From Hyphomonadaceae bacterium (GTDB lineage Bacteria; Pseudomonadota; Alphaproteobacteria; Caulobacterales; Aquidulcibacteraceae), in contig JAHDXR010000005.1 of assembly GCA_023384105.1 (NCBI GenBank), positions 124,001 to 188,000 of the forward strand: a stretch of 64,000 nucleotides of DNA, written 5' to 3'. The position numbers and the translations under genes are program-made. The notes under the pieces were generated by a model. It did not search any database and had not been told where the DNA came from. It worked only from the letters and a program-made list of their open reading frames with translations. Positions 609 to 60,928 of the stretch are shown piece by piece. Positions within the stretch are counted from its first letter, which is position 1, and every line of letters begins with the position of its first letter.

Positions 609-1811
609 GTGAAATCGAACTCCGCTTCGCTCGCCGCGCTGGTCGGCGTCGTGCTGATCGGCATGACGGGGTTCGGCGTCTTCCTGCCGATCTTTCCGTT
701 CCTTTCGCTCGAGATCGGGGCCACGCCCACGGCGACGACGATCGCTATGGGCGCCTATTCGTTCGGCCAGCTGATCTCCTCGCCGTTCTGGGGCCGTTTG
801 AGCGATCGCGTCGGACGCAAGCCGATCCTGATCGCCGGCCTGATCGGCGGTGTCGTCTCCTATCTGTGGATCGCCCAGGCCGCGAATGTGGTTGAGCTCG
901 GCGCCGCGCGGCTGTTCGGCGGGCTGATGGCCGGCAATGTCGGCGCCGCCTTCGCCGCCGCGGCCGATCTCGCCGACGACAAGACCCGCGCCCGCAACAT
1001 GGGCCTGCTCGGCGCCGCCGTCGGCTTCGGCTTCATCGCCGGCCCGGCGCTGGGCGCGCTGCTGATCGGCCACACGCCGACGCGCGAAGGCTTCGCGCTG
1101 GTCTGCTACGCCTCCGCCGCGCTGGGCGCGCTGGCGACGCTGACCGCGTTCGCGTTCTTCCGCGAAACGCTGGCGCCCGAATCGCGCACGCAGAAGGGCG
1201 CCGAGCGTCCGCGCCGCATGGCCCTGCTGGTGTCGCGCCCGGCGCTGGCGCGCTTCGTCGCCGTGATGTTCCTGGTCATCGCCGCCCAGGCGCTGATGGA
1301 AGTGACGTTCGGCTTGTGGGCGGATGTCGAACTGCGCTGGGGGCCGCGCGAGGTCGGCTGGACGCTCGCCGCGCTCGGCGCCGGGGCGGTGCTGCTGCAG
1401 GGCGGCGGCGCGGGCGCGGCCGCGCGCGCGCTGGGAGAACGGCTCACGCTGCTGATCGGCCTTGCGCTGTTCGCCGCCGGTTTCGGCGGCCTCGCCGTCA
1501 GCCACGCGGTCTCGACCATGGCTGCGTCGCTGGTCGCGCTCACCATCGGCCTCGGCCTCGCCACGCCCGCGCTCAATTCGCTGATCGCCGCGCAGGCCGA
1601 CGAGCGCGAACGCGGCGCGGTGATGGGCCTGTCGCAATCGGCCTCCGCGCTCGGCCGCGTCGCCGGCCCGCTCGGCGCCGGCGCGCTGTTCGATCATTTC
1701 GGCTCGGCCGCACCCTACGCCGCCGCCGCCCTGCTGATCCTGGCCGCGCTGTTCGTAGCGCTGGGAGAGCCGGCGAGGAGCAGGGATTGGGGGCTGGGGA
1801 CTGGGGATTAG
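609..1811 (+). CDS. MFS drug-efflux type transporter
   Basis: A 400-residue hydrophobic protein with about 12 predicted membrane segments. The loop between TM2 and TM3 carries GRLSDRVGRKP, the signature of the major facilitator superfamily, and the early segments resemble the TetA/multidrug H+ antiporter group. Start is GTG at 609; no strong ribosome site is visible. The last residues (SRDWGLGTGD) and the TAG stop are read from a G-rich intergenic repeat, so the original C-terminus was probably different. Substrate cannot be told from sequence. Faces the radical SAM gene tail to tail. Confidence 0.85.
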   Translation: MKSNSASLAALVGVVLIGMTGFGVFLPIFPFLSLEIGATPTATTIAMGAYSFGQLISSPFWGRLSDRVGRKPILIAGLIGGVVSYLWIAQAANVVELGAARLFGGLMAGNVGAAFAAAADLADDKTRARNMGLLGAAVGFGFIAGPALGALLIGHTPTREGFALVCYASAALGALATLTAFAFFRETLAPESRTQKGAERPRRMALLVSRPALARFVAVMFLVIAAQALMEVTFGLWADVELRWGPREVGWTLAALGAGAVLLQGGGAGAAARALGERLTLLIGLALFAAGFGGLAVSHAVSTMAASLVALTIGLGLATPALNSLIAAQADERERGAVMGLSQSASALGRVAGPLGAGALFDHFGSAAPYAAAALLILAALFVALGEPARSRDWGLGTGD

Positions 1812-1974
1812 GGACTGGGGGTTGCGTGTTGTTCTGTCATTCCGGGATCGCGGAGCGAGACCCGGAACCCAGGGCAAACGCGCGGCGCCCTGTCACCCCT
1901 GGGTTCCGGGTTCAATGCTTCGCATTGCCCCGGAATGACGGAAGCGGCCCCCTAATCCCCAATCCCTAATCCCG
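1782..1974. repeat. Nested inverted-repeat element (GGGATTGGGG / TCATTCCGG family)
   Basis: Outer arms are runs of GGGATTGGGG/GGGGATTAGGG at the left and their complement CCCTAATCCCCAATCCC at the right. Inside is a second inverted repeat, TCATTCCGG (from 1837) against CCGGAATGA (to 1938), with a further pair around CCGGAACCCAGGG and CCCTGGGTTCCGG. It fills the gap between two convergent genes and provides both of their TAG stop codons. A shorter relative of the inner palindrome is at 52648-52681. It may act as a two-way terminator (inference). Confidence 0.8.
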
Positions 1975-2994
1975 ATACGCCCGCCACGTCCCCGCGCGGT
2001 CGCGCACCTCGTAGCCGCCGTCGCTTTCGCGCACGCTGGGCGCGGCCAGCGGCGCCTTGCCGTGGCCGCCTGGAATGTCGAGCACGTAGCTCGGCTGGGC
2101 GATGCCGGAGACGCGCCGATGCAGCGTCTGCGCGAGGTCCTGACCCTTGGCGATGCTGCAGCGGAAGTGCGACGTCCCCGGCGCCTTGTCGAGATGGTGC
2201 AGGTAATACGGCTTCACCCGCGCCTCGACGAGGCTGCGCATCAGAGTCTCCAGCGTCTCGACATCGTCGTTGACGCCCTTCAGCAGCACCGTCTGCGAGA
2301 GCATCGGCACGCCGGCGTCGACGATGCGCGCGATCGCGGCGCGCGCCTGCTCCGTCAGCTCGCGCGGATGGTTGGTGTGCAGCACCACATAGGTGGTCGC
2401 GCCCGCAACGCGCAGCGCCTCGACCAGATCCGGCGTCACCCGCAGCGGGTCCACCGCCGGCACGCGCGTGTGCCAGCGGACGATCTTCACGTGTGCAATC
2501 GCCGCCAGCCGCGCGGTGATCTCGCGCACGCGGCGCGCCGACAGCAGGAACGGATCGCCGCCGGTGAGGATCACCTCCCAGATTCCCGGCTGGCTCCGAA
2601 TATAGGCGAGCGCTGCGTCCAGCTCCGCGCCGGTCAGCGTGCCGTCGCCATCGGGGCCGACCATCTCGCGCCTGAAGCAGAAGCGGCAATAGACCGGACA
2701 CACATGCACCAGCTTCAGCAGGCAGCGGTCCGGATAGCGATGCACCACGCCTTTCACCGGCGTATGCGCGTCGTCGCCGATCGGATCGCTCAGCTCGTCC
2801 GGCGCGGTCTCCAGCTCGCGCGGGTCCGGCCGGAACTGCGCGGCGATCGGGTCGTCCGGATCGGTGGGATCGATCAGCGCCTCCATCGCCGGCGTGATCG
2901 CCACGGCGTAGCGGGCGGCGACCTGCGCCAGCGGATCGTTCTGCTGTGCCGCCTTCGCCGCTGACAACGGGCTAAACTCCAAAAGCGTTCGCAT
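1966..2994 (-). CDS. Lysine-2,3-aminomutase-like radical SAM protein (EpmB/KamA family)
   Basis: A 342-residue protein with the radical SAM cluster motif CPVYCRFCF (about residue 99) and the PLP-lysine region LDKAPGTSHF near the C-terminus. The length matches EpmB, which makes (R)-beta-lysine for modification of elongation factor P, rather than the longer clostridial KamA. Without an adjacent epmA or efp, assignment to EpmB stays provisional. Its start (ATG, 2994) overlaps the end of the upstream GNAT remnant by 23 nt, suggesting cotranscription from the pirin gene. The stop is supplied by the repeat at 1782-1974. Confidence 0.8.
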   Translation of the reverse strand: MRTLLEFSPLSAAKAAQQNDPLAQVAARYAVAITPAMEALIDPTDPDDPIAAQFRPDPRELETAPDELSDPIGDDAHTPVKGVVHRYPDRCLLKLVHVCPVYCRFCFRREMVGPDGDGTLTGAELDAALAYIRSQPGIWEVILTGGDPFLLSARRVREITARLAAIAHVKIVRWHTRVPAVDPLRVTPDLVEALRVAGATTYVVLHTNHPRELTEQARAAIARIVDAGVPMLSQTVLLKGVNDDVETLETLMRSLVEARVKPYYLHHLDKAPGTSHFRCSIAKGQDLAQTLHRRVSGIAQPSYVLDIPGGHGKAPLAAPSVRESDGGYEVRDRAGTWRAYRD

Positions 2995-3247
2995 ACCGCA
3001 CGCGGCCGCCGGCTTTCAGCACGCCGGGCCGAAGCTCCAGCGCCATGAAGTGCGGACCCGAGAACGGAGCTTCCAACGATTCGGCGGCCGCCGCCGAGAA
3101 GCCGAACCGGGGATAGTAGTCCGCGTAGCCCAGCACAATGACGGCGTCGAGGCTGAGCGCAGCGCAGCGCGCGTTGCCGGCGCGGATCAGTTCGCCGATC
3201 CCGCGCGCCAGCGCTTCCTCAACACATCTGGCCGCTCTGCCGTTCAC
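2972..3247 (-). pseudogene. GNAT acetyltransferase remnant (C-terminal half only)
   Basis: About 91 codons read ARGIGELIRAG, then VLGYADYYPRFGF, then FMALELRPGVL and the terminal RYANAFG. These are typical of the acetyl-CoA site and C-terminus of YhbS-type GNAT N-acetyltransferases. The N-terminal half that forms the first strands is missing, because the pirin gene sits there. A GTG at 3247 overlaps the pirin stop (GTGA), so the fragment may still be translated by coupling. Best read as a decayed gene, though a short functional product cannot be excluded. Confidence 0.6.
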
Positions 3248-4134
3248 GACATCGGGTTCGGCGGCGCGGCGGTCTCGGGCAGCGGAATCCATTCGTCGTG
3301 GTCGAGATCGGGCAGTTTCATGCGGCCGGCGCGCCAATCGGCCTTGGCCTGCTCGATCCGTTCCTTGGACGAATGCACGAAATTCCATTCGATGAAGCGC
3401 GGCCCCAAGGGCTCGCCGCCGAGCGCCATCACGATCGCCGGCGTCTCGGCGCGGAACGTCACCGCGTCGCCCGGCGCCAGCACGATCATCTGGCCCTCGG
3501 CGAAGCGCCGACCCTCCACCTCGACTACGCCCTGCGCCACATAAAGCGCCCGCTCCGGATGCTCCGCCGGCGCGGATGCGCGCGCGCCGGGCGCGAGCGC
3601 CCAGTGCACGTAGAACATCGGCGAGTGCGTCTTCACCGGCGCGGCGAGCCCCATGCTGGCGCCGGCGATCAAGCGCCCCCATGCGCCGTCCTGCTCGAAC
3701 GTCGGCAGCTCCGCCGCGCCGTAATGAGCGAACGCGGGGTCGGTCTCTTCATCCTTCTCCGGCAGCGCCACCCAGGCCTGGATGCCGTTCATCGGCCCGC
3801 CTTCGCGCCGGCCGCGCTCGAACCGTTCGGAATGGGTGATGCCGCGCCCGGCCGTCATCCAGTTGAGTTCGCCCGGCCGGATCGGCTGTTCGGAGCCGAC
3901 GCTGTCGCGGTGCATGATCTCGCCTTCGAACAGGTAGGTGACGGTCGAGAGCCCGATATGCGGATGCGGCCGCACGTCGACGCTTCTGGGAATGCCGGGC
4001 TGAAACACGGTCGGCCCCATGTGGTCGAAGAAGGTGAACGGGCCGATCATCCGCCGCTGCGCGAACGGCAGTACGCGCCCCACCTCGAAACCGCCCAAAT
4101 CCTTGCGCCGCTGCGCGATGACAAGTTCGATCAT
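3244..4134 (-). CDS. Pirin family protein
   Basis: A 296-residue bicupin. The N-terminal cupin has the metal-binding pattern HPHIGL...EIMHRDS and, further on, TAGRGITHSER, which supply the conserved His/Glu ligands of pirins. Bacterial pirins (YhhW-like) bind Fe and can act as quercetin dioxygenases or regulatory proteins; the biological role here is unknown. ATG start at 4134. First gene of a probable minus-strand operon with the GNAT remnant and the aminomutase-like gene. Confidence 0.9.
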   Translation of the reverse strand: MIELVIAQRRKDLGGFEVGRVLPFAQRRMIGPFTFFDHMGPTVFQPGIPRSVDVRPHPHIGLSTVTYLFEGEIMHRDSVGSEQPIRPGELNWMTAGRGITHSERFERGRREGGPMNGIQAWVALPEKDEETDPAFAHYGAAELPTFEQDGAWGRLIAGASMGLAAPVKTHSPMFYVHWALAPGARASAPAEHPERALYVAQGVVEVEGRRFAEGQMIVLAPGDAVTFRAETPAIVMALGGEPLGPRFIEWNFVHSSKERIEQAKADWRAGRMKLPDLDHDEWIPLPETAAPPNPMS

Positions 4135-4267
4135 GCGTCAAGCCTACGCCCTGACGGCGCGAAAGCCCAGCACTGCTGCAAGCAACGGCAGCGGACGCTT
4201 GAAGCCGGCGCGCGCGCGCCATAGGCCTGAAGCGCGAGGACGCCTTTAAACTTCGCCCACGGAGCAG

Positions 4268-4873
4268 ATGGTTCCCGTCATTTACCGCAAACGAGCCGGC
4301 GCGATCTCGCGCGACGAGCGCGAATGGCGCGTGGAGGAGGACGCCCTGGTGTGCCGCGGCGGTTCCGGCCAGGAGCGCCGCCATTCCTGGCGCGACATCG
4401 TCAGCGTGCGCCTGTGCCATGAGCCGAGCCGGTTCCGGCCGTGGCGCTACGTGTTCGAGCTGCAGCCCAAGCACGACCGCAAGATCGAGATCGACAACGC
4501 CCATTATGTCGGCGCGCGCGCCTATGAGGATCGCAGCGAGAGCTACACCGCCTTCGTCCGCGCCGCGGTCGACCGGCTCGAGGCGCACAAGCCGGGCATG
4601 CGCGCGCTGATCGGCGAGACGCCCAAGCGCTACTTCTTCCTGCTGCTGGCCGCGCTCCTGGCGTTCTGTGCGCTGGCCTATGCGCTGATCGCCGTGCCGA
4701 CGCCGATCGACCATCTGCCCTATGTGCCGCTGGCCAAGCTGGTGATCATCCTCCTGATGCTGCCGATGCTTTGGCTCTGGGTGCTGGGGTCGCTGCCGCG
4801 CGGGGTGCCGCTGGACGCTATTCCGCCCCGCGCCTTGCCGCCGGCGGCCGAGCCCCCGGGGGAGGACGCCTGA
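4268..4873 (+). CDS. Small membrane protein with basic N-terminal domain
   Basis: A 201-residue protein. The first about 115 residues are charged (WRVEEDALVCRGG, SWRDIVSVRL, WRYVFEL) and look like a small beta-rich PH-like domain. Two hydrophobic segments follow, near residues 121-142 and 154-172, then a Pro-rich tail. An upstream GGAG close to ATG 4268 supports the start. It stands alone between the divergent pirin gene and the tRNA. I do not recognise a named family, so no function is assigned. Confidence 0.7.
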   Translation: MVPVIYRKRAGAISRDEREWRVEEDALVCRGGSGQERRHSWRDIVSVRLCHEPSRFRPWRYVFELQPKHDRKIEIDNAHYVGARAYEDRSESYTAFVRAAVDRLEAHKPGMRALIGETPKRYFFLLLAALLAFCALAYALIAVPTPIDHLPYVPLAKLVIILLMLPMLWLWVLGSLPRGVPLDAIPPRALPPAAEPPGEDA

Positions 4874-4964
4874 GGCGGCGCGCGGCCCTTGCCCTTGGGC
4901 TCCGCTCCGTCTAGGAAACCGCCCTTCCGCCGGATCGCCCTTCAGGGCCAGACCGGGCCCCGGA

Positions 4965-5040
4965 GCCGCCTTAGCTCAGCTGGTAGAGCGGCGCATTCGT
5001 AATGCGTAGGTCGCGTGTTCGAGTCACGCAGGCGGCACCA
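4965..5040 (+). tRNA. tRNA-Thr (CGT)
   Basis: A 76-nt cloverleaf. Acceptor GCCGCCT pairs with AGGCGGC and the CCA is encoded. D-arm GCTCAGCTGGTAGAGC and T-loop GTTCGAGTC are standard. The anticodon stem GCGCA/TGCGT encloses loop TTCGTAA, giving anticodon CGT, which reads ACG (Thr). The DNA downstream is visibly less GC-rich, and tRNA 3' ends are common integration sites. I see no second copy of the tRNA 3' end within the next 6 kb. Confidence 0.95.
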
Positions 5041-5128
5041 TTCCCCAATTTGATTTGAAAGGTTTTTCGCTTCATTCGGCGATGGGCGCTGTCGCATGCC
5101 GACTGAGCCCCGGAGCCTTGTTCTCAGC

Positions 5129-5142
5129 TTGACCGGGGTCAA
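5129..5142. promoter_or_regulatory. FNR/FixK-type binding site
   Basis: TTGACCGGGGTCAA is a perfect palindrome fitting TTGA-N6-TCAA, the core of FNR/FixK/Anr sites. It lies in the 192-nt gap between tRNA-Thr and the enolase-superfamily gene, centred about 97 nt before the ATG at 5233. It could put the 5.2-9.9 kb block under oxygen control. No FNR-type regulator gene is in the window, so this is inferred from the motif alone. Confidence 0.5.
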
Positions 5143-5232
5143 ATGGCGGGGGCGCCGCTGTGCTTAGGTGTTTGGGCCGCCGCAAGAAGCGCCAGCGTTT
5201 GAATCGGCGCCAAGGTTGAGGTGAGACCGCTC

Positions 5233-6414
5233 ATGCGTCTGATCAGGGCGACATCTTACGCTGTGCGCACGCCGCCGCCGCATTGGGGCGGGTACTTCTG
5301 GTATTTCGTGCGGCTGGAGACCGATTCCGGGCACGTCGGCTGGGGCGAGGCGGCGGTCCTGTTCAGCATGTACGGCTTGGAGAAGAGCTTCCATCAACTC
5401 GTGCAGGATGTGTTCGCCCGTTATCTCGACGGCCGCGACCCGATGAACCGCGAAGTGCTGAACAAGCTCATGTATGCGGGCCTCTGCTCGCAACATGCGG
5501 ACTATTTCATGGCCGGCGTGATCAGTGCGTTCGATCTCGCCATGTGGGACATCTGCGGCAAGAAACTGGGCGTTCCTGTGTGCGATCTGTTGGGCGGCCG
5601 GTTCCGCGAGCGCATTCGCTCCTACACCTATCTCTACGATCTGTCGGGCAAGGATCTCGCCGCCGCGGCCGCCGACTGGTCGAATGCGCCCAAGCGCATG
5701 GGCGAGCTTGCCGCGCGCATGGTGGATGAGGGCTTCACCGGCGTGAAGCTCGATCCGGTCCGCTACACGCCGCCCGGCTTTCCGCCGCTGACGCCGTTTG
5801 AAATCACGATGGCCGAGTACGACCAGGCGGAGCGGACCATCGAAGCCATCCGCAACGCGGTTGGAAATCGCGCGGACATCCTGATCGGCACGCACGGCCA
5901 GATCACGCCGTCGGTGTCGCGCCGACTGGCGAAGCGGTTGGAAAAGTTCGACCCGCTCTGGCTGGAGGAGCCGTGCCCGCCGGAGAACATGGAGGAAATG
6001 GCGCGCGTTGCGGCCGCCACCTCGATTCCGGTTGCGACGGGCGAACGGCTGGCGCACGTGCACGATTTCCAGCGCTTGTTCGCAGCGGGCGCCTGCGCCT
6101 ATGCGCAACCGGACCTGGGCAGTTGCGGCGGGTTCACCGCAGCCAAGGCGATCTCGTCGATGGCCGAAGCGTATTACGTGTTGATGGCCCCGCACGTATG
6201 GGGCGGGCCGGTGATCACCGCGGCGGCGATGCAGCTCGACGCGGCGATTCCGAACTTCCTCATCCAAGAGAGCATCTACAAGTCGGGCGGCTTCTTCGAT
6301 GAAATCGTCAAGGACCCGTTGAAGTGGGCGGATGGCGATCTGATTGTCGACGACCGCCCCGGGATCGGCGTCGAGCTGGACGAGACAAAGCTCGCGCTTC
6401 ACGCCGCCGTTTAG
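5233..6414 (+). CDS. Enolase-superfamily (mandelate racemase/muconate lactonizing) enzyme
   Basis: A 393-residue protein with an N-terminal capping domain (PPPHWGGYFW near residue 15) and a barrel containing VKLDP (171-175), WLEEP (243-247), ATGE (268-271) and APHVWGGP (319-326). These fit the MR/MLE branch that includes acid-sugar dehydratases and cycloisomerases. The first metal-ligand region reads IGTHGQ (218-223) where many relatives have an Asp, so metal binding may differ. ATG 5233 agrees with homologous N-termini; an in-frame GTG at 5221 is an alternative. First gene of the cluster with phenol-lyase and PabBC. Substrate unknown. Confidence 0.85.
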   Translation: MRLIRATSYAVRTPPPHWGGYFWYFVRLETDSGHVGWGEAAVLFSMYGLEKSFHQLVQDVFARYLDGRDPMNREVLNKLMYAGLCSQHADYFMAGVISAFDLAMWDICGKKLGVPVCDLLGGRFRERIRSYTYLYDLSGKDLAAAAADWSNAPKRMGELAARMVDEGFTGVKLDPVRYTPPGFPPLTPFEITMAEYDQAERTIEAIRNAVGNRADILIGTHGQITPSVSRRLAKRLEKFDPLWLEEPCPPENMEEMARVAAATSIPVATGERLAHVHDFQRLFAAGACAYAQPDLGSCGGFTAAKAISSMAEAYYVLMAPHVWGGPVITAAAMQLDAAIPNFLIQESIYKSGGFFDEIVKDPLKWADGDLIVDDRPGIGVELDETKLALHAAV

Positions 6415-6428
6415 CGGTTCAAAGCTGA

Positions 6429-7937
<1,509 letters not shown>

Positions 7938-8031
7938 GCGCGCGCCGCCGGGCGCGCCTGAAGCGCCGGATGCCGTTGCACCCGAATAATCGTTGCCGGC
8001 GCCTCCTTGCCTGCGTAGAGGGGCGGGCGAG

Positions 8032-9909
8032 ATGTCGGCGGAATCTGCAGCGGCTGGGAAGCGTCTCTTTGACGGCGGGCCTTTCGTGCTGTGCGAGGAC
8101 GCGCGCTCTCAAGACGGGCTGGCGCGCCTGTTCCGCGGACCATGCGAGACGATCGTCGCCCATCGGCTGAGCGATGTCGCCCCGGCGCTGGAGGCGCTGC
8201 GCGGGCGGATGAAGCGGGGAATGTACGCGGCGGGCTGGCTGAATTACGAGGCGGGCCTGGCGTTTGAGCCGAGGCTCATGGCGCGCGTCGGCGAGCATGC
8301 GGATGGGCGCGGCCCTTTGGCGTGGTTCGGCCTTTTCGACGGCTTTCGGAGTCTTTCGCGCGAGGAACTGGCGGACGCGCTGCCCGATCCGGCCGGCGCG
8401 TGGGTTTCGCCGCCGCGACCGCGCGTGTCGCGCGCCGATTATGGCGCAGCCTTCGCGCGCGTGCGGCAATACATCGTCGCCGGCGATATCTACCAGGTGA
8501 ACCTGAGCTATCGCGCCGATCTGACTCTGCTCGGCCACCCTTTGGCGGCCTATGCTCAGCTCCGCGACGCCGGGCGGGGCGCTTGGAGCGGCGTGGCGTT
8601 CGACGGCTCGAACTGGCTCATCTCCACGTCGCCGGAATTGTTTTTCAAACTCCGCGCGGGCGAGATCGAAGCCAAGCCCATGAAGGGCACGGCGCGCCGC
8701 CATGAGGATCCGGCGCGGGATCGCCTGGCGGCGCAAGAGTTGAGGAGCAATGAGAAGGAGCTGGCCGAGAATGTCATGATCGTCGACCTGCTGCGCAACG
8801 ACATCTCGAAATTGGCCAGGCGCGGTTCGGTGCATGTCCCGGAGCTGTTTGCACTTGAGACCTACCCGACCCTGCACACGCTGACATCGACGGTGCGCGG
8901 ACGCTTGCGGGACGAGTACGACGCTGTCGATGCGCTGCGCGCGCTGTTTCCCTGCGGGTCGGTGACGGGCGCTCCGAAGATCAGGGCGATGGAGATTATC
9001 GGCGAACTCGAAACCGATAGCCGCGGTCCCTACACAGGCGCCATCGGATGGATGTCGCCATCCGGCGATGCGGAATTCAACGTCGCGATCAGGACGATAG
9101 CGGTCTGCGGCGGCCGTGCGGAGATCGGCTTAGGGTCCGCCGTTGTGTACGACTCCGACGCTGAAAGCGAGTGGCGCGAGTGCCAGGTCAAGGGCGCCTT
9201 CGTCAGTGCGCGCGCCCCGCGCTTCGATCTCATCGAGACCATGCGGTTCGATCCTCCGAAGACCGTGCGGCATCTCAGCCTGCACTTGCAGCGGTTGTTT
9301 AAGTCCGCCGGCGTTTTCGGATTTGCGCTCGACGAGAGCGCTGTTCGCGCGCGGATCGAAGAGGCGGTCGCCGGCCGGTGCGAGTCATGCGTCGTCCGCT
9401 TGCGTCTGTCTCCGGACGGCGCCGTCGCCGTCCAGCTCAAGGACCTGCCGGCGTTTGCGGATTCGCCGGTTCAAGCCGCGCTGGCTCCGTTGCCGGCGGC
9501 GAGCGAAGATTTCCGGCTTCGGCACAAGACCACTCTGCGGGGATTCTACGATGCGCCGCGCAAGGAGGCCGATGCAGAGGAAGTGGTGTTCGTGGACGAA
9601 AGCGGTTTCGTCACTGAGGGAAGTTTCAGCAACGTGTTTGTGAGGCGAGACGGCGTGTTGTGGACGCCGCCGGCGAACAGGGGCTTGTTGCCGGGCGTAT
9701 TGCGCACGTCGCTGCTGGCGGCCGGGCAGGCGCAGGAGCGCGACCTGTGTCCCGCCGACCTGGCGGGCGGGTTCTATCTCGGCAACGCTGTGCGCGGGCT
9801 TGTGGAGGCGCAACTTCGACGTGAATCCGAAGGCGTGCTCACGGAAGGCGCGCCAACGTTCGCCCGCGGCGGTCGAGGCCCGGGCGGGAGGCCGATTACA
9901 GGCAATTGA
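8032..9909 (+). CDS. Aminodeoxychorismate synthase component I / aminodeoxychorismate lyase fusion (PabB-PabC)
   Basis: A 625-residue fusion. Residues 1-393 are a chorismate-binding PabB domain. The motif KPMKGT (215-220) carries the Lys that marks PabB and is not found in anthranilate synthases. GSVTGAPKIRAMEII (309-323) and GLGSAVVYDSD (366-376) complete the fold. Residues 395-600 are a PabC-like PLP lyase with HKTTLRGFYD (Lys499) and TEGSFSNVF (528-536). The pair would turn chorismate plus ammonia or glutamine nitrogen into 4-aminobenzoate. No glutaminase (PabA) gene is nearby. The last 25 residues are Gly-rich and extra. ATG 8032 follows a purine-rich stretch. Confidence 0.9.
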   Translation: MSAESAAAGKRLFDGGPFVLCEDARSQDGLARLFRGPCETIVAHRLSDVAPALEALRGRMKRGMYAAGWLNYEAGLAFEPRLMARVGEHADGRGPLAWFGLFDGFRSLSREELADALPDPAGAWVSPPRPRVSRADYGAAFARVRQYIVAGDIYQVNLSYRADLTLLGHPLAAYAQLRDAGRGAWSGVAFDGSNWLISTSPELFFKLRAGEIEAKPMKGTARRHEDPARDRLAAQELRSNEKELAENVMIVDLLRNDISKLARRGSVHVPELFALETYPTLHTLTSTVRGRLRDEYDAVDALRALFPCGSVTGAPKIRAMEIIGELETDSRGPYTGAIGWMSPSGDAEFNVAIRTIAVCGGRAEIGLGSAVVYDSDAESEWRECQVKGAFVSARAPRFDLIETMRFDPPKTVRHLSLHLQRLFKSAGVFGFALDESAVRARIEEAVAGRCESCVVRLRLSPDGAVAVQLKDLPAFADSPVQAALAPLPAASEDFRLRHKTTLRGFYDAPRKEADAEEVVFVDESGFVTEGSFSNVFVRRDGVLWTPPANRGLLPGVLRTSLLAAGQAQERDLCPADLAGGFYLGNAVRGLVEAQLRRESEGVLTEGAPTFARGGRGPGGRPITGN

Positions 9910-9929
9910 GCTGATGGCGATGAGCTGTC

Positions 9930-9943
9930 TTGACCCCCATCAA
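9930..9943. promoter_or_regulatory. FNR/FixK-type binding site upstream of the DGC gene
   Basis: TTGACCCCCATCAA fits TTGA-N6-TCAA and differs from TTGAT-N4-ATCAA at one position. It is in the 130-nt gap after the PabBC gene, centred about 103 nt before the ATG at 10040. An AT-rich stretch (CTGATAATTTTATC) follows and could hold the promoter. It suggests oxygen-responsive expression of the DGC gene. Confidence 0.5.
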
Positions 9944-10039
9944 GCGCCTGAGCGCTTCTGCCTGATAATTTTATCCCATCTCTTTAGCGGATCGGACCAC
10001 CCATCAGCGGGCCGACGCGACGGAGGCTGGGTGTGTTGA

Positions 10040-10429
10040 ATGAGCGCGCAAGCGACAATCGACCGGCGCAAGCTGCCGCTAGTTTATTCGTGTTCGGGGT
10101 GCTCAAGCGCCGCGCAGACGAGCAACGACGTAGCGCTTGAGTTGAACCGGCGCAACTTGGCCGAGATGTCCTGTATCGCCGGCGTCGGCGGGGACGTTCC
10201 CAAGCTGGTGAAGGTGGCCAAATCGGGGCGGCCGATCGTTGCGATCGACGGCTGCGCGCTTGCCTGTGTGAAGAACACCCTGGCCCGCCACGGCGTGGAG
10301 CCCACAGTGTGGCACAACCTTCGGCGCTACGATGTGGCGAAGATCTACAATACGGATGCTGATCCGGAAAACATCGGGCGGGTGCTGGAGATCGTCATCG
10401 CTTCGCTTCCGGAAGGCGGCGACGGTTGA
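10040..10429 (+). CDS. DGC-domain putative zinc-binding protein
   Basis: A 129-residue protein with the conserved cysteines of the DGC family: YSCSGCS (16-22), EMSCIAGVGGDV and DGCALAC, the DGC motif that names the family. Such proteins are often next to redox, sulfur or metal-resistance genes, but their biochemical role is not established. ATG 10040 has GGAGG about 14 nt upstream, a longer spacing than usual. Followed 84 nt later by the ArsR-type repressor and so may belong to the sulfide module. Confidence 0.8.
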   Translation: MSAQATIDRRKLPLVYSCSGCSSAAQTSNDVALELNRRNLAEMSCIAGVGGDVPKLVKVAKSGRPIVAIDGCALACVKNTLARHGVEPTVWHNLRRYDVAKIYNTDADPENIGRVLEIVIASLPEGGDG

Positions 10430-10485
10430 GCGGCGACGCCCGCGCCGGAGCGCTGGAGCGCGTGGTTGAAGAGATATGAGCGGTC

Positions 10486-10499
10486 GCTAATATATACGC
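10486..10499. promoter_or_regulatory. Probable ArsR/BigR-type operator upstream of the repressor gene
   Basis: GCTAATATATACGC, an AT-rich patch in GC-rich DNA, matches 13 of 14 bases with the complement of 12811-12824 (GCTAATATATATGC) in front of the sulfide:quinone oxidoreductase operon. It ends 14 nt before the proposed TTG start of the ArsR-type gene, an expected place for autorepression. The shared site at both transcription units is the main evidence. Confidence 0.65.
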
Positions 10500-10513
10500 C
10501 AGGAGATCCCGCA

Positions 10514-10837
10514 TTGGCGACCGTGACCAAGAACAACACCAAGGCGATGCGCGAGCTGGAGAGCCGCGCCGGCGAGGCCGCCGAGCTGCTCAAGCTGCTC
10601 GCCAACGATCAGCGCCTGATCATTCTTTGCCGCTTGAGCGGTGAGGAAATGTCGGTGTCCGAACTGAGCGAGTACGTGGATCTCGCGCAGTCGGCCCTGT
10701 CGCAGCATCTGGCGAAGCTGCGCGCGCAGGGGCTCGTCGCCACGCGCCGCGAGGGCCAGAACATCTATTACCGGCTGGCCAATCCCACGGCGCAGAAGCT
10801 CGTCGGCGCGCTCTGCGAGCTTTATGGCGGCAAGTGA
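10514..10837 (+). CDS. ArsR-family repressor, BigR/SqrR-like
   Basis: A 107-residue winged-helix protein with the recognition region LAQSALSQHLAKLRAQGLV and a beta-wing VATRREGQNIYYRL. TTG 10514 is chosen because AGGAG sits 8 nt upstream; the earlier ATG at 10466 would place the operator at 10486 inside the gene. Cys39 is at the position of the first conserved cysteine of the persulfide sensors BigR/SqrR. The second, Cys101, lies near but not exactly at their C-terminal cysteine. With sqr opposite, a (per)sulfide-sensing repressor is the best guess. Confidence 0.85.
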   Translation: MATVTKNNTKAMRELESRAGEAAELLKLLANDQRLIILCRLSGEEMSVSELSEYVDLAQSALSQHLAKLRAQGLVATRREGQNIYYRLANPTAQKLVGALCELYGGK

Positions 10838-10840
10838 AGC

Positions 10841-11044
10841 TTACTTGAACGCCGCGCCCGGCTTCAGCCCGAGGCGCTTGAACGCCATCGCGGCCGGGCA
10901 GAAGCCGGTGAACGCCGCCTGAAACATGTTGAGCCCGGCGAACGCCGGCAGCAGCGCCCAGTAGGGATGCACCCAGATCGCGAGGGCGAGGCCCGTCAGC
11001 ACGACGATGCCGGCGAAAGCGAAAACAGCGCGGTCGACATTCAT
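10841..11044 (-). CDS. DUF2892 (YgaP-type) small membrane protein
   Basis: A 67-residue protein with two hydrophobic segments (about 7-25 and 29-47) and the FTGFCPAAM motif seen in the membrane part of YgaP, an E. coli rhodanese. Here the rhodanese domain is absent and only the membrane domain remains, a common form in sulfur-metabolism operons. Its ATG overlaps the thioredoxin stop (ATGA), so translation is coupled. Last gene of the sqr operon, 3 nt from the convergent repressor gene. Confidence 0.8.
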   Translation of the reverse strand: MNVDRAVFAFAGIVVLTGLALAIWVHPYWALLPAFAGLNMFQAAFTGFCPAAMAFKRLGLKPGAAFK

Positions 11045-11493
11045 GATTGTGTTTCCAGTTGTTGGATGGTTTGCAGGTGTCGGGTGAGCCATTCGCCCAG
11101 CTGAGCGCTGGTCATGAGCCCGGCGTGTCGGGCGATTTCGACGCCGTCGTGAAACAGGACCAGCGCCGGGATGCCGCGTACGCCGAGCTGCGCCGGGGCG
11201 CCGGTCTCGTCGGCGTTGAGCTTGAGAAAGCGGACATTGGGTTCGAACCGGCGCGCCGCTTCGGCGAAGTGCGGGGCCATCATCCGGCACGGCCCGCACC
11301 AGGGCGCCCAGACATCGACCAGAACCGGGCCGACCGTCAGCTTCACATGCGCCGCCAGTCCGGCGTCGTCGACGTCGACAGGCGCGCCCGCGAACAGTTT
11401 CTCGCCGCAGCGGCCGCACTTTGCGGCGCCGGGATCGCGATCGCCGATGCGGTTGCCGGTTTGGCAGATGGGGCAGACAGCTTGTTTCATCAT
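11041..11493 (-). CDS. trxC: Thioredoxin 2-type protein (TrxC)
   Basis: A 150-residue protein with an N-terminal zinc ribbon (CPICQTGNR near residue 7, CGRCGEK near 35) followed by a thioredoxin fold with active site WAPWCGPCR and the cis-Pro region RGIPALVLF. This layout is that of TrxC. In this operon it could reduce persulfides or polysulfides formed by the quinone oxidoreductase (inference). Its ATG overlaps the sqr stop (ATGA), and its own stop overlaps the next start. Confidence 0.9.
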   Translation of the reverse strand: MMKQAVCPICQTGNRIGDRDPGAAKCGRCGEKLFAGAPVDVDDAGLAAHVKLTVGPVLVDVWAPWCGPCRMMAPHFAEAARRFEPNVRFLKLNADETGAPAQLGVRGIPALVLFHDGVEIARHAGLMTSAQLGEWLTRHLQTIQQLETQS

Positions 11494-12779
11494 GCGTGCG
11501 GCCGCTTGGTTTCCTTGAGTTTCGAGATGCCGAGCACTTTCAGCGCCAGGGACTCGTAGAACGGCTCGCTCTCGCCGCGGCGCAGCTTGCCGATGAAGTA
11601 GCGTTCGAACTGCTCCTTCGCGAAATGCACCCACTTGCCGTGCGCGGACCAGTTGACGTTGCGCGGCGGGATTTGCGGCTGCGCCACGAAGGCGACGCCG
11701 TCGTCGCCGAAATCGGCGAGGCAGATCGCGTTCCAGGTGGCCTGTTCGACGGCGTCGCGGCCGCGCACGAGATCGCCGATATTGCGTGCGGTCGCCGTCA
11801 CCATGGACTCGATCATGAAGCCGGTTTTCGGCACGCCGACGGGAACGGGCGTCTTGCCGGTCGGCGGGATCGCGACGGCGACGCCGATGCCGAACACGTT
11901 CGGATATTTCGGATTGCGCTGGTTCTGATCGACGATGACGAAACCGCGCGGGTTGACCAGGCCCTCGACGCCCACGATCGCCGGCACGCCGCGGAACGCC
12001 GGCAGCAGCATCGAGAACGCAAACGGCAGATCGTGGCCGGTCTTGACCGAGCCGTCTTCGTTCAATTCCTCGACCGACATCTGGCCGGCCTCGACCTTGG
12101 CGACGCGCGCATTGGTGATCCACTTGATGTGGCGCTCGCGCATTTCGCTTTCGAGCAGGCTCTTGGTGTCGCCGACGCCGTCGAGGCCGAGATGGCCGAT
12201 ATAGGGCTCGGCGGTGACGAAGGTCATCGGCACGCGGTCGCGCAGCTTGCGGCGGCGCAGCTCGGTGTCGAGGATCATGGCGAACTCGTAGGCCGGACCA
12301 TAGCAGGATGCGCCCTGAACGGCGCCGACGACGATCGGACCGGGAGCTTCGCAGAACGCCTCGAACGCGCCGGCCGCTTTCTCGGCGTGATCGATGTGGC
12401 AGATCGAATGCGTGAAGCGATCCGGACCCAGTCCCTCGATCTCGTCGAAGGCGAGATCGGGGCCGGTGGCGATGACGAGATAGTCGTAGTCGACGGCGCC
12501 GCCGGCTTCGAGCTCGACCCGGTTCTCCGCCGGATGCACGCGTTTCGCCCCGACGGAGATGAAGTCGATATGCTTGCGCTTCATCACCGGCGGAAGGTTG
12601 ACCTCGATGGTGTCGCGTCTGCGCCAGTTAACCGCGATCCAGGGGTTCGAAGGCACGAAGTGATAGGTATCGCCCTTGGAAATCAGCACGACCTTGTCTT
12701 CGGGCCGCACTTCGCTGCGAATCTCGTAGGCCGCAAGCACGCCGCCGAGCCCTGCGCCTAGAATTGCGATCGTCGCCAT
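11490..12779 (-). CDS. sqr: Sulfide:quinone oxidoreductase
   Basis: A 429-residue FAD protein with an N-terminal dinucleotide fold (ILGAGLGG, 6-13). Cysteines at 127, 159 (GASCYGP) and 353 (AICLADFG) correspond to the three cysteines of type I sulfide:quinone oxidoreductase. GIGVAVAIPPTGKTPVPVG (297-315) fits the second FAD contact. It would oxidise sulfide to sulfane sulfur at the membrane and pass electrons to ubiquinone. The start ATG 12779 has GGAGG 7 nt upstream. First gene of an overlapping operon with trxC and DUF2892, preceded by operator-like palindromes. Confidence 0.9.
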   Translation of the reverse strand: MATIAILGAGLGGVLAAYEIRSEVRPEDKVVLISKGDTYHFVPSNPWIAVNWRRRDTIEVNLPPVMKRKHIDFISVGAKRVHPAENRVELEAGGAVDYDYLVIATGPDLAFDEIEGLGPDRFTHSICHIDHAEKAAGAFEAFCEAPGPIVVGAVQGASCYGPAYEFAMILDTELRRRKLRDRVPMTFVTAEPYIGHLGLDGVGDTKSLLESEMRERHIKWITNARVAKVEAGQMSVEELNEDGSVKTGHDLPFAFSMLLPAFRGVPAIVGVEGLVNPRGFVIVDQNQRNPKYPNVFGIGVAVAIPPTGKTPVPVGVPKTGFMIESMVTATARNIGDLVRGRDAVEQATWNAICLADFGDDGVAFVAQPQIPPRNVNWSAHGKWVHFAKEQFERYFIGKLRRGESEPFYESLALKVLGISKLKETKRPHA

Positions 12780-12810
12780 ATCTGTTCCTCCCGGCGCGGG
12801 GGGCGCCATT

Positions 12811-12841
12811 GCATATATATTAGCACATGCGTATATACGCA
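12811..12841. promoter_or_regulatory. Double AT-rich operator upstream of sqr
   Basis: Two motifs lie side by side 32-62 nt before the sqr start. GCATATATATTAGC (12811-12824) is the complement of the repressor-gene operator with one difference. TGCGTATATACGCA (12828-12841) is a perfect 14-bp palindrome. The stretch also faces the RND adaptor gene at 12955, which might share the control. Assignment to the ArsR-type protein encoded at 10514 is by shared sequence. Confidence 0.65.
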
Positions 12842-12954
12842 ACTATTGGATTGGAGCGGTGACAGAACCATGCCGTTCCCGCACCGGCGGGTGTTGATCT
12901 GACGCAACGTCAATCTTGCCGCTGGCGGTGAGATGCGAGGTTAGGGAGGTGGCG

Positions 12955-13983
12955 ATGAAGAAGATCGTCCTAGTGTTGGCGGCGGCGCTTCTGGCGTCGT
13001 GCGGATCGCGGGATGCAGCCGCCCCGGCGCCGGCCGCCGCGCCCGAGGGACAGCTCGTTGTCGAGCGGACCCTCGCGCCCGACTACAAGACGGTCGCGGC
13101 TGTGCTCACCAGCCGCGATGTCGGCGACGCCCGCGCCCGCATCGGCGGAACCTTGACCCGCTTGCTGGTGCGCGAAGGCGACCAGGTGCGCCGCGGCCAG
13201 GTGGTTGCGGTCATCGCCGACCAGCGTCTGGCGCTGGAGGCGCAGGCCGGCGCGGCCGGCGTCGCCGCCGCCGAAGCCGCCGCCGAACGCGCGCGCGCGG
13301 ACCAGGCGCGGTTCCAGGTTCTGTTCGACCGTGGCTTCCTCGCGCAGGCGCGCATGGATCAGGTCAATGCGGAGACCCGCGCCGCCGAGGCGCAGTTGCG
13401 TGCGGCGCGCTCGCAGGGCGGGGCGCTGTCGGAAGCCAATGCGCAGGGCCAGGTGCTCGCGCCCGCCGACGGCCGCGTCACCCGCGCGCCGATCCCGCAG
13501 GGCGCGGTGGTGATGCCCGGCGAAGTCGTGGTCGCCATCGCCACCGGCGCCCGGGTGCTGCGGCTGGAATTGCCGGAGGCGCAGGCCGCGTTCCTGCACG
13601 AGGGGCAGGATATCCGCATCCTCGACGTCGGCGAGAGCCCGGAAGCGCGCACGGTGCGCGTCCGCCAGGTCTATCCCGCGATCGAGAACGGCCGCGTGAC
13701 CGCCGATCTCGACGCCGCCGGCCTTGACGGCGAATTCGTCGGCGCCCGCGTGCGCGTGCTGATCCCGGCGGGCGAGCGCGAAGCGGTCATCGTCCCGGTC
13801 CGCTACATCGTCACCCGCTTCGGCGTCGACTATGTGCGGCTCGTGCGCGACGGCGGCGTCATCATCGACGCGCCGGTTCAGCGCGGCGCGCCGCTGCCGA
13901 CCGACGCCATGCCGGACGGCGTCGAGATTCTCTCCGGACTCAACGCGGGCGACGCCATCGCGCCGCCGGAGGCCGGCGCATGA
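12955..13983 (+). CDS. RND efflux periplasmic adaptor lipoprotein
   Basis: A 342-residue protein with a lipoprotein signal (lipobox LLASC, Cys at residue 16), a biotinyl-lipoyl hairpin region (TRLLVREGDQVRRGQVVAVI), a long Ala/Glu-rich coiled-coil (about 85-145) and beta-barrel segments. This is the layout of AcrA/MexA-type membrane-fusion proteins. ATG 12955 has GGGAGG upstream; an earlier ATG at 12916 would hide the signal peptide. Its stop overlaps the pump gene start (ATGA). No outer-membrane channel gene follows. Confidence 0.9.
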   Translation: MKKIVLVLAAALLASCGSRDAAAPAPAAAPEGQLVVERTLAPDYKTVAAVLTSRDVGDARARIGGTLTRLLVREGDQVRRGQVVAVIADQRLALEAQAGAAGVAAAEAAAERARADQARFQVLFDRGFLAQARMDQVNAETRAAEAQLRAARSQGGALSEANAQGQVLAPADGRVTRAPIPQGAVVMPGEVVVAIATGARVLRLELPEAQAAFLHEGQDIRILDVGESPEARTVRVRQVYPAIENGRVTADLDAAGLDGEFVGARVRVLIPAGEREAVIVPVRYIVTRFGVDYVRLVRDGGVIIDAPVQRGAPLPTDAMPDGVEILSGLNAGDAIAPPEAGA

Positions 13984-16900
13984 CTCTCGGCATTTCCGGA
14001 TCGCTGACCAAAGGCACGATCCGTTCCCCGCTCACGCCGCTGTTCCTGCTGACGGCGCTGGCGCTCGGCCTGCTGGCGCTGTTCACCATCCCGCGCGAGG
14101 AAGAACCGCAAATCTCGGTGCCGCTGGTCGACATCAGCGTGCGCGCCGACGGCCTGCGCGCCCCCGACGCCGTGGAGCTGATCACCAAGCCGCTGGAGAC
14201 CATCGTCAAAGGCGTCGAGGGCGTTGAACACGTTTACAGCCAGACCGAAGACGACCGCGTGCTGGTGACGGCGCGCTTCCTCGTCGGCACCGATCCGGAC
14301 GACGCCATCGTCCGCATCCAGCAGGAAATTCGCGCCAATTACGACCGCATTCCGGTCGGCGTTCCTGAGCCGCAGATCGTGGCGCGCGGCGTCAACGACG
14401 TGCCGATCATGGTGATCACCCTGGCGCCTGGCGCCGAGGCCGCGGATCGCTGGGACGACAGCGCGCTCTATCGCGTCGCCGACGAGCTTCAGAGCGAACT
14501 GATGAAGGTGGAGAATGTCGGCCTCACCTTCATCGTCGGCGGCCGGCCGCAGGAAATTCGCGTCGCGCCCGACCCCGGTCGGCTCGCGCTCTACGGCGTG
14601 CCGCTTGGGCGCGTGATCGAAACCGTGCGCAACGCCAACCGCTCCTTTCCGGGCGGCGATCTGCGCGGGCGGGACGGCGTGTCTTCCGCCATTATCGGCC
14701 GGACGCTCGACGATCCCGGCGCGATCGGCCTGCTCACCGTGCAGGCGGCGGACGGACGCAGCGTCTATATCCGCGACGTCGCCGAAGTGACGCTCGGTCC
14801 GCGCGAGGACCAGGCGCGCGTTTGGCGGTTCACCCGAGACGGCGAAGGCCAGCGCATTGCGCCTGCGGTGAGCCTCGCCATCGCCAAGCGCGACGGCGCC
14901 AACGCCGTCGTCGTGTCGCAGGCGGTGGAGCGGCGCCTGCATGCGCTCGAAGGGTCGCTGATCCCGCATGGCGTCGACGTCGCGGTCACGCGCAACTATG
15001 GCGAGACCGCCAACGAGAAGGCCAACGAACTCCTGTTCCACCTGGGTCTGGCGACGATCTCCATCGTCGCGCTGATCTGGTTCGCCGTCGGCCGCCGCGA
15101 GGCGATGGTGACGGCGGTGGTGATCCCCACCACCATCCTGCTGACGCTGTTCGCCTCCAACCTGATGGGCTACACCATCAACCGCGTCAGCCTGTTCGCG
15201 CTGATCTTCTCGATCGGCATCCTGGTCGACGACGCCATCGTCATCATCGAGAATATCGCCCGGCACTGGGCGATGAAGGACGGCCGCTCCCGCGTCCAGG
15301 CCGCGATCGAAGCCGTGGCCGAGGTCGGCAATCCGACCATCGTCGCCACGCTCACCGTGGTCGCGGCGCTGTTGCCGATGATGTTCGTCTCCGGCCTGAT
15401 GGGCCCCTACATGGCGCCGATCCCGGCCAACGCCTCGGCGGCGATGCTGTTCTCGTTCTTCGTCGCCGTGGTGATCGCGCCGTGGCTGATGCTCAAGTTT
15501 GCGCCGAAGGCGGAAGCCGCAGGCGCGCATGGCGGCCGCGGCCATGACGAGGAAGGCTTCTTCGGCCGCCTCTACCGTCGCGTCGCCGCGCCGATCATCC
15601 GCTCGCGCAAGGGCGCGCGGAAATTCCTGGTCATTGTCGGCGTCGCCACCATCGTCGCCATGTCGCTGTTCGCCACGCGCACGGTGCGGGTGAAGCTCCT
15701 GCCGTTCGACAACAAGTCCGAACTGCAAGTGGTGATCGATCTGCCGGAAGGTTCGTCGCTGGAGGCGACCGAGCGGGTGCTGATCGAAGCCGCGGCCGTC
15801 GCCGGCACGGTGGAGGAGGTGGTCTCCGTCGACGCCTACGCCGGCACGGCCGCGCCGTTCAACTTCAACGGCCTTGTCCGCCACTATTACATGCGCCAGC
15901 GCCCCGAGCTGGGCGATCTGCAATTGACGCTCGAGCCGAAGCACGACCGCAGCCGCTCCAGCCACGCCATCGCGCTCGACCTGCGCCAGCGGCTGCAATC
16001 GCTGCACGCGCCGGACGGCACGGTGGTGCGCGTGGTGGAAGTGCCGCCCGGCCCGCCGGTGATCTCGACGCTGTTGGCGGAGATCTACGGCCCGGACGCC
16101 GAAACGCGCCGCGCCGTCGCCACCGAGATGCGCGGCATCTTCAATCAGGTGCCATACCTCGTCGACATCGACGACAGCTTCGGCGCGCAGCGGCCGCGCC
16201 TGCGGCTGACGCCCGACCGCGAGCAGATCGAGTTCTTCGGCGTCGCTGAGCGCGACATGCTCGATTCCGTCGCCGTCGCCATGGGCGGGCAGGTGGTCGG
16301 CTATTCGCATCGCGGCGAGGGGCGCAATCCGATCGAGATCAGCGTGCGCCTGCCGCAATCAGCCCGCGCCTGGAGCCAGAATCTCGCCTCGATTCCGGTG
16401 GCGGCGACGGCTGACGGCGCGCGCCTGGTTGAGCTGGGCGAACTGGTCCGCGCCGACACCGAAGCCGGCTCGTATCCGATCTTCCGCCGCAACGGCCGCT
16501 ACGCCGAAATGGTGATGGCCGAACTCGCCGGGGAATACGAAGCGCCGATCTACGGCATGCTCGACGTAGAGCGCCTGGTGCGCGAGCACGACTGGGGCGC
16601 GCTGCCGCGGCCCGAAATCATCATGTACGGCCAGCCGGAGAACGAGAGCGTTCCGTCGCTGTTGTGGGACGGCGAATGGGAGATCACCTACGTCACCTTC
16701 CGCGACATGGGCGCGGCGTTCATGGTCGCCATTCTCGGCATCTACATTCTGGTGGTGGCGCAGTTCAAAAGCTTCAAGCTGCCGCTGGTGATCCTGACGC
16801 CGATCCCGCTGACGCTGATCGGCATCGTCATCGGCCACATGCTGTTCAACGCGCCGTTCACGGCGACGTCGATGATCGGCTTTATCGCGCTTGCCGGCAT

Positions 16901-59857: not shown

Positions 59858-60928
59858 GTGAGCGAACTCGCCAACACGTCTGCCAAAGCTGCAGCGGTCT
59901 CCCTGGCGGCGCGGTTGCGCACGGCGATAGAGACGCTCTATCCGGGTTACTTCGCCTTCGTGATGGCCACCGGCATCATCTCGAACGCGCTGTTTTTCGA
60001 ACATCAGCGCGAGCTGGCGGACGTGCTGTTCTTCGTCAATCTGGCGGCCTATCCGATCCTCTGGCTGCTGACCGCGCTGCGCGTTGTCTGGGCGCGCGCT
60101 GCGCTCTGGGCCGATCTGACCAGTCCCAAGCTGGTGTTCGCCTTCTTCACGGTCGTGGCCGCGACCGACGTGCTCGGCGTCGGCGTCAATCTGCGCGGCT
60201 GGACGCACGCCGCGACGGGAATGTGGCTGTTTGCGCTGATCTTGTGGGTGGTGCTGATCTATTGGTCGTTCGGCGTGCTGACCTTCCTCAACACCGCGCA
60301 GGGCGCAAAGGTCGTGCATGGCGGCTGGCTCATCGCCATTGTCGGCACGGAATCGCTGGTGATTCTCGGCGCGGCGATCGCGCCCAATCTCGGGGACCAG
60401 CAGCAAAGCGTGCTGGTGCTGATCCACATGCTCTGGGGCGTGGGGCTCGCCCTCTATGGCATTTTCGTCACGCTGTTCGCCTACCGCATCTTCTTCTTCG
60501 ACATCGCGCCGGAGGACATGACGCCGCTCCTGTGGGTGGTGATGGGCGCGGCCGCGATCAGCACCAACGCGGGATCGGTGCTGATCCTGACCGACACCGG
60601 CATCGCCTTCCTCGACTCGATGCGGCCTTTCATCGACGGCGTCACGCTCATCATGTGGGCCTGGGCGACATGGTGGATTCCGCTGCTGCTGCTGTTCGGC
60701 GCCTGGAAGCACGGCGTGCGGCGAACGCCGATCGTTTATACGCCGATGCTGTGGAGTCTCGTGTTTCCGCTGGGCATGTATGCGCTGGCGAGCCTGAGGC
60801 TGTCCCTGGCCGCCGATTTCGCGCCGCTGCGCGCGGTTTCAGGCGCGATGGTCTGGATCGCGCTGGCGGCGTGGATCATGACCGCGGCGGGGATGCTGCT
60901 CTCGTTCCGCACGAGCGCCGCGCGCTAA
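59858..60928 (+). CDS. TDT-family (TehA/SLAC1-like) transporter
   Basis: A 356-residue protein with ten predicted helices. YPGYFAFVMATGIISNALFF is the conserved opening of the tellurite-resistance/dicarboxylate transporter family. PLLWVVMGAAAISTNAGS and MWAWATWWIPLLLL are other family segments. Start GTG 59858 with GGGGAGAG upstream. The substrate could be an anion or a dicarboxylate. A degenerate repeat follows. Confidence 0.85.
   Translation: MSELANTSAKAAAVSLAARLRTAIETLYPGYFAFVMATGIISNALFFEHQRELADVLFFVNLAAYPILWLLTALRVVWARAALWADLTSPKLVFAFFTVVAATDVLGVGVNLRGWTHAATGMWLFALILWVVLIYWSFGVLTFLNTAQGAKVVHGGWLIAIVGTESLVILGAAIAPNLGDQQQSVLVLIHMLWGVGLALYGIFVTLFAYRIFFFDIAPEDMTPLLWVVMGAAAISTNAGSVLILTDTGIAFLDSMRPFIDGVTLIMWAWATWWIPLLLLFGAWKHGVRRTPIVYTPMLWSLVFPLGMYALASLRLSLAADFAPLRAVSGAMVWIALAAWIMTAAGMLLSFRTSAAR

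Follow-up and report, generated by a model that had tools for sequence, protein, structure and literature searches.

A tyrosine phenol-lyase gene next to tRNA-Thr in a Hyphomonadaceae genome as a candidate member of a dispersed low-oxygen module

The stretch analysed here, called the window in the following, comprises 64,000 nucleotides of contig JAHDXR010000005.1 of a Hyphomonadaceae bacterium (G000:C4:124001-188000), whose 3.67 Mb genome is assembled in 28 contigs. Downstream of a tRNA-Thr gene, three genes on one strand encode an enolase-superfamily enzyme of the mandelate racemase/muconate lactonizing enzyme (MR/MLE) type, a tyrosine phenol-lyase (TPL) and an aminodeoxychorismate synthase I/lyase fusion (PabB-PabC, hereafter PabBC). 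An earlier sequence-only reading of this DNA had placed three such genes 192 nt past the tRNA, and both the position and the gene identities hold: the tRNA ends at 5040, and the gaps are 192 nt to the enolase ATG at 5233, 125 nt from the enolase gene to the TPL ATG at 6540 and 94 nt from TPL to the pabBC ATG at 8032. The features are as follows:

4965..5040, plus strand: tRNA-Thr (CGT), located with ARAGORN; the DNA on its 3' side varies between relatives.
5233..6414, plus strand: enolase-superfamily (MR/MLE) enzyme of the GTHGQ subgroup; MR_MLE_C at 215.7 bits.
6540..7937, plus strand: TPL of an environmental clade with Leu-His-Thr at 288-290; TIGR02618.
8032..9909, plus strand: PabB-PabC fusion; TIGR00553 plus Aminotran_4; judged a neighbour, outside the module discussed below.

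The window TPL scores 747.2 bits on the TIGR02618 equivalog model, above the curated cut-off for a TPL (720.7), and stays below the tryptophanase equivalog cut-offs (TIGR02617, 498 of 825.8 bits; NF053783, 544 of 750 bits). Its residues were compared in an alignment of 84 clade rows including the window (82 distinct loci, since L002 equals L072 and L003 equals L073), two canonical TPLs, E. coli tryptophanase (TnaA) and 36 tryptophanase-type rows, with the catalytic and pocket positions and their roles presumed to be those of C. freundii TPL. The earlier view that every known catalytic residue is in place holds for all listed sites but one, which are TPL-type; it needs correction at position 288, where Met is replaced by Leu. 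Across the 84 rows the TPL-type residues checked are kept, one row departing at F123 and one at F448, and the tyrosine-type M379 and R381 are present in every row. Judged from its sequence, the window lyase is a tyrosine phenol-lyase, with a predicted cleavage of tyrosine to phenol, pyruvate and ammonium.

The canonical TPLs (TIGR02618, EC 4.1.99.2; Pantoea and Fusobacterium; PDB 9j3u, 1c7g and 1tpl) share T124, N185, D214, R217, K257, M379, R381 and F448 with the window enzyme, but it is only 60.3% identical to the Pantoea and 61.7% to the Fusobacterium enzyme and belongs to a separate starred clade. In our 89-row tree, this clade excludes both canonical enzymes, and the four Hyphomonadaceae TPLs group together beside gammaproteobacterial TPLs. 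The clade is also marked at positions 288-290, where the window has Leu-His-Thr (L288 and T290 in 84/84 rows, H289 in 83/84), whereas the two canonical TPLs aligned have Met-Pro-Ser. Annotation was read at a single canonical locus, that of Pantoea, where TPL has an aromatic amino acid transporter as its neighbour. TnaA is of the same fold family and is 43% identical (E. coli) to the window TPL; it differs by D124, I381 and H448 in place of T124, R381 and F448.

The product of the enolase-superfamily gene carries MR_MLE domains above the gathering score (215.7 and 43.6 bits), which assigns it to the MR subgroup of the enolase superfamily, and falls short of the D-galactonate dehydratase (DgoD) model NF010624 (240.2 of 311 bits). 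In all 10 non-DgoD rows aligned, the window's type included, the first metal ligand of DgoD, an Asp, is replaced by Gly; both Glu ligands and both His are retained, and we take the roles of these Asp, Glu and His positions to be those in DgoD. Its top matches among solved structures are GTHGQ-type MR-subgroup enolases (PDB 4e4u, 4e5t and 3t4w), which are named just as MR/MLE family. With nine further members of the class that were found, the window type shares 44-50% identity, and with G198 72-73%. A LysR-aldehyde dehydrogenase-enolase-GMC oxidoreductase run occurs in both rhizobial plasmids read (of 55 matching records), a context that suggests sugar-acid or alcohol catabolism and names no specific substrate.

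The distribution of these genes was followed in 30 genomes of the genus, with the window's own genome as G000. TPL orthologues (84-90% identical) occur in four of them, G000, G003, G005 and G013, and exactly these four carry the enolase gene (E up to 1e-60) and UbiU (E up to 1e-40); the chance of two sets of 4 in 30 coinciding is 3.6e-5 if phylogeny is ignored. The four genomes do not form one clade in a tree of GuaA, which was found in 27 of the 30 genomes (tree built on 26, with 10 of 23 inner branches open): four label changes are needed, and at least three are forced by starred branches. The gene orders differ as well. Only the window and G013 have the enolase and TPL genes side by side; in G013 the contig ends inside the enolase gene, and the remainder of an enolase gene adjoins UbiTUV on a separate contig. 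In G003 the order is UbiT-UbiU-UbiV and then the enolase gene, in G005 UbiU-UbiV adjoin TPL itself with the enolase gene 13 kb off, and in G000 UbiU lies on a contig other than the window's. Because the closest partners also differ (G003 for TPL, at 90%; G005 for the enolase, at 86%), the genes were not copied whole as one cassette.

UbiUVT is a pathway of O2-independent ubiquinone synthesis (PMC6747719, PMC10470549). In three of the four genomes (G003, G005 and G013) its genes are found close to the TPL or enolase gene, and like the window TPL the pathway is an O2-free route retained alongside an O2-dependent one; unlike it, TPL is catabolic and involves no hydroxylation step. A separate observation concerns G005 (L057, 10569-13442), where an open reading frame resembling a sulfonamide-resistant dihydropteroate synthase (sul2-like) and an IS91/ISCR-like transposase, both recognised by eye, stand beside UbiV and guaA.

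Candidate regulatory sites were scored by sequence against TTGAY-N4-RTCAA, which we take to be the FNR/FixK consensus. Three lie in this block:

5129..5142: candidate FNR/FixK-type palindrome TTGACCGGGGTCAA, perfect, ahead of the enolase gene.
6441..6454: candidate FNR-type box TTGATAAGGGTCAT with a single mismatch, 86-99 nt before the start of TPL.
9930..9943: candidate FNR-type palindrome TTGACCCCCATCAA, perfect, ahead of the DGC-domain gene.

The boxes at 5129 and 9930 are the only perfect ones in the window. The form TTGAY-N4-RTCAW gives six both-strand matches at four places, three in the block and one at 46281, against 0.34 expected, and none of 100 shuffles reaches six. Upstream of TPL, a TTGAY-N4-RTCAT box is also found in G003 and G005, so that three of the four TPL genes of the genus have a box with at most one mismatch. 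For tryptophanase-like genes the same holds in seven of eight genomes, five of the boxes being perfect. In a control set that still included the target genes, 30 of 292 genes had such a box, 14 of them perfect. G029 served as a positive control: narK and a Crp/FNR-family regulator gene flank two perfect boxes there, and hemN has one box upstream in G029 and in G009.

As a marker of nitrate respiration in the genus, a narG above the cut-off is present in 20 of the 30 genomes, including all four with TPL and all eight with tryptophanase-like genes; the chance of this is 0.18 for the TPL set and 0.02 for the TnaA set. The tnaA and narG genes are 7.1 kb apart in G000, 12.6 in G007, 15.8 in G009, 8.9 in G024 and 16.2 in G029, and on different contigs in G003, G013 and G014. 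NirK exceeds its cut-off in G000 alone among the genus genomes. A match to 4-hydroxyphenylpyruvate dioxygenase (HPD), which requires O2, is found in 29 of the 30 genomes, 27 of them above the cut-off, and the window's genome has HPD too.

Beyond the genus, a pattern scan of genome contigs matched at least 592 stretches, at least 586 of which encode a TPL relative. The best 80 were kept, with up to 10 kb of flank on each side, many shorter. These 80 come from many phyla, which overturns the earlier remark that TPL is rare outside enterobacteria; TPL of this clade is, on the sequence matches, common. Among the matches listed, the nearest named relatives belong to metagenome-assembled genomes of Hyphomonadaceae and Caulobacterales. 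At 20 of the 80 loci a TnaA-like lyase is no more than 500 nt from TPL. NorC and NorB, identified by their best PDB matches (4xyd and 3o0r), occur in the flanks of 14 loci, all Bacteroidota, and both within 3 kb in 13. Within the same distance of TPL are NadA (6 loci), NadB (6), an Rrf2 regulator (7), Ric (4) and NosZ (1; Planctomycetota, L140); examples of NadA, NadB, Ric, NosZ (L091), UbiU, UbiV and UbiT exceed curated cut-offs. Three loci (L114, L116 and L130) have NadA or NadB, TnaA, TPL and NorC all present. Lrp-type regulators at five loci and HPD at two likewise lie within 3 kb; at L075 and L076, TPL directly adjoins HPD with a divergent Lrp/AsnC regulator, thus bringing both tyrosine routes together. 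A protein of about 600 residues that has no Pfam match was seen in the flanks of nine loci (for example L107, 8171-9982), several of them with NadA/NadB and NorCB.

The neighbours just listed also allow a different function, in which the clade clears nitrosative damage by lysing 3-nitrotyrosine, S-nitrosocysteine or similar products of nitric oxide build-up. NorC/NorB, Ric and Rrf2 close to TPL would suit this, as would the near-universal Leu-His-Thr near the ring pocket where canonical enzymes have Met-Pro-Ser. We nevertheless consider it very unlikely, as a tryptophanase-like gene accompanies TPL, and NadAB, UbiUV and HemN indicate O2 replacement over damage repair.

The identities of the genes, the residues of the active site, the shared occurrence, the neighbourhoods and the boxes are observations; from them we infer a regulation, an in vivo substrate and a benefit for the window genes. 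We propose, with a probability of roughly 0.6, that TPL and the enolase gene are part of a dispersed module for low oxygen, and that TPL, in cells respiring nitrate, breaks down tyrosine without O2 and so bypasses the O2-dependent HPD. Under oxygen limitation, an FNR/FixK-type regulator would switch on a set of O2-free enzymes, with UbiUVT serving ubiquinone and HemN haem synthesis, and with tryptophanase and TPL acting on tryptophan and tyrosine, respectively. The respiratory nitrate reductase (Nar) would serve as electron sink, TPL would split L-tyrosine into phenol, pyruvate and ammonium by pyridoxal phosphate chemistry, around HPD, and the enolase may act under the same condition on some acid. 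PabBC and the sulfide genes farther downstream would stay outside as neighbours only. A redox connection of tpl has a precedent in Rhodobacter capsulatus, where it is activated by the regulator RegA (PMC5359404).

A wider proposal, which we put forward tentatively and rate somewhat below even odds, is that the TPL clade, widespread among environmental bacteria of many phyla, allows tyrosine to be used during anaerobic respiration and joined O2-replacing modules in at least two lineages: in Hyphomonadaceae with UbiUVT, whose regulon would also include HemN and tryptophanase, and with an added enolase, and in Bacteroidota with NadAB, tryptophanase and nitric oxide reductase. If this is true, TPL is no longer an enterobacterial oddity; many nitrate- or nitric oxide-respiring bacteria could use tyrosine and tryptophan once their dioxygenases stop, and phenol and indole would be released in denitrifying waters and sludge. 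It would also provide a testable regulon, together with a condition under which to look for the reaction that an uncharacterised branch of the enolase superfamily catalyses.

A number of results weigh against these proposals. Of the four TPL genomes, G003 and G013 are incomplete (completeness figures of 82% and 79%), and narG by itself fails to predict TPL, which occurs in four of the 20 narG genomes. All three TPL boxes of the genus bear one mismatch, and the TPL of G013 has none; neither the nirK nor the UbiU of G000 has a box upstream, and none was seen at the narG loci examined with flanks of 1.5 kb, too short to take in narK. Across the entire window, the looser TTGAT-N4-ATCAA, with two mismatches, occurs 17 times where 6.8 are expected, and only four of these lie in this region. 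Outside the genus, a box precedes one of 10 TnaA-type genes, and upstream of TPL five were found at the 77 usable of the best 80 loci (two of them genus loci) against 3.1 by shuffling, which is no real excess; FNR-type boxes were therefore dropped as a clade-wide TPL feature, neither score giving a clear excess. A Bacteroidota NorB query had no match in the genus, in a search without a positive control. At 62 of the 80 loci, no respiration, nitric oxide or Ubi gene that we sought lies within 3 kb of TPL, and 48 lack TnaA, NadA/B and Rrf2 as well. The link to nitric oxide reductase is confined to Bacteroidota, and 13 of its 14 rows fall in one starred set of 20, of which seven rows are unlinked, with L102 outside; the linkage may thus be one old event, kept rather than gained many times. 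The RegA effect was observed in aerobic minimal medium (PMC5359404). No paper found joins TPL and "nitric oxide reductase", a weak negative, as most subscription journals lie outside the coverage.

The place of the genes next to a tRNA needs separate consideration. As had been noted from the letters alone, the DNA is poorer in GC than its surroundings (0.647 at 5041-9942 against 0.683 for the window, with only 0.2% of 4.9 kb sliding windows falling lower), and the line at 6781-6840 is indeed 50% GC; the dip extends past the three genes, 5041-12860 being at 0.646. The codon-usage distances are 0.20 for the enolase gene, 0.21 for TPL and 0.30 for pabBC, inside the range of 20 reference window genes (0.11-0.33), and thus add no support for recent acquisition. 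Among 24 relatives with DNA at the 3' side of tRNA-Thr, 15 have a unique sequence in the 1.5 kb inspected and nine fall into four small groups, and the enolase gene is absent there from all 24; upstream of the tRNA, a pirin gene and a gene for a protein of 201 residues are placed as in the window in two relatives (G008 and G018). The suggestion of a small acquired cluster is therefore borne out by the variable segment and the GC dip and gains nothing from codon usage. A second copy of the tRNA 3' end was not found within the 64 kb window, and tRNA-mediated integration with an attachment repeat was rejected on that ground; no integrase was recognised by eye among the open reading frames of positions 1-14000, where no profile search for integrases was made. 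The variable 3' side and the low GC, with the loose gene order and the unlinked PabBC, would fit a chance gathering at a variable junction, that is, an acquired catabolic pair beside an acquired pabBC with no common role. We regard this as unlikely: TPL, enolase and UbiU show an identical pattern (4/30) across differing gene orders and contigs, and boxes lie upstream of two of the three genes.

The low-oxygen module as we propose it leaves out the third gene. PabBC scores 363.3 bits on TIGR00553 (cut-off 328.4) and has an Aminotran_4 domain. The sequence-only reading took the TPL, the enolase-type enzyme and the aminobenzoate synthase for a joint pathway, as their common strand and the gaps of 125 and 94 nt might suggest. 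However, eight PabBC copies are spread over six of the 30 genomes (two each in G000 and G005, one each in G021, G025, G015 and G016); both G005 copies lie on contigs other than that of TPL, no match was found in the TPL genomes G003 and G013 (both incomplete), and PabBC was not found in the flanks covered at the 80 other TPL loci. The gap upstream of pabBC has no FNR-type box. Scattering among relatives had been named in advance as what would speak against the cluster, and the three-gene order is indeed scattered. G000:C24 and G005:C32 form an identical pair; otherwise identity among the eight copies is 52-69%, and the neighbourhoods read outside that pair have no common order (five of the eight copies read besides the window's). 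We rejected the three-gene cluster on these grounds; a joint pathway is hardly credible, and PabBC is probably a neighbour only. Regarding the identical pair, 12.3 kb with pabBC are 97.7% identical in DNA (L064 and L065), and the GuaA proteins of the two genomes are 93% identical; this near-identity is either a recent transfer or a misbinned contig. A further 21 of the 30 genomes have just partial PabBC matches of 37-50%, probably TrpE, and three have none.

The genes downstream, and one farther along the window, are the following:

10040..10429, plus strand: DGC-domain protein (PF08859).
10466..12842: genes for an ArsR-family regulator, what we take to be DUF2892 and thioredoxin proteins, and a flavoprotein resembling sulfide:quinone reductase (SQR); the run is present also in relatives that lack TPL.
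59924..60925, plus strand: TDT/SLAC1-family permease, with a one-mismatch box at 59784.

TPL can eliminate S-substituted cysteines. The enzyme might thus be mainly a cysteine or S-alkylcysteine lyase and a source of H2S or thiols for the SQR/thioredoxin/ArsR sulfide module close by, since the ArsR-to-SQR run extends over 2.5-4.9 kb downstream of the window TPL and, in G005, 4 kb separate SQR and TPL. Yet nine of the 12 genus genomes with SQR lack TPL, in G027 the ArsR-SQR-RND run recurs without TPL, and just one of the 80 TPL loci, which is that of G005, has SQR in its flanks; moreover, the tyrosine-type M379 and R381 are universal in the clade. We find this function quite unlikely, and the sulfide module, which occurs without TPL, was rejected as its partner. 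The SQR-like flavoprotein itself scores far under the cut-off of its best NCBIfam model.

Relatives of the TDT/SLAC1-family permease adjoin TPL in G003 and G005, lie on the TPL/TnaA contig in G013 and stand near TnaA in G029. An RND pump, 43-49% identical to the window's, is found about 2.3 kb from TPL at five gammaproteobacterial loci (L079, L080, L081, L083 and L090).

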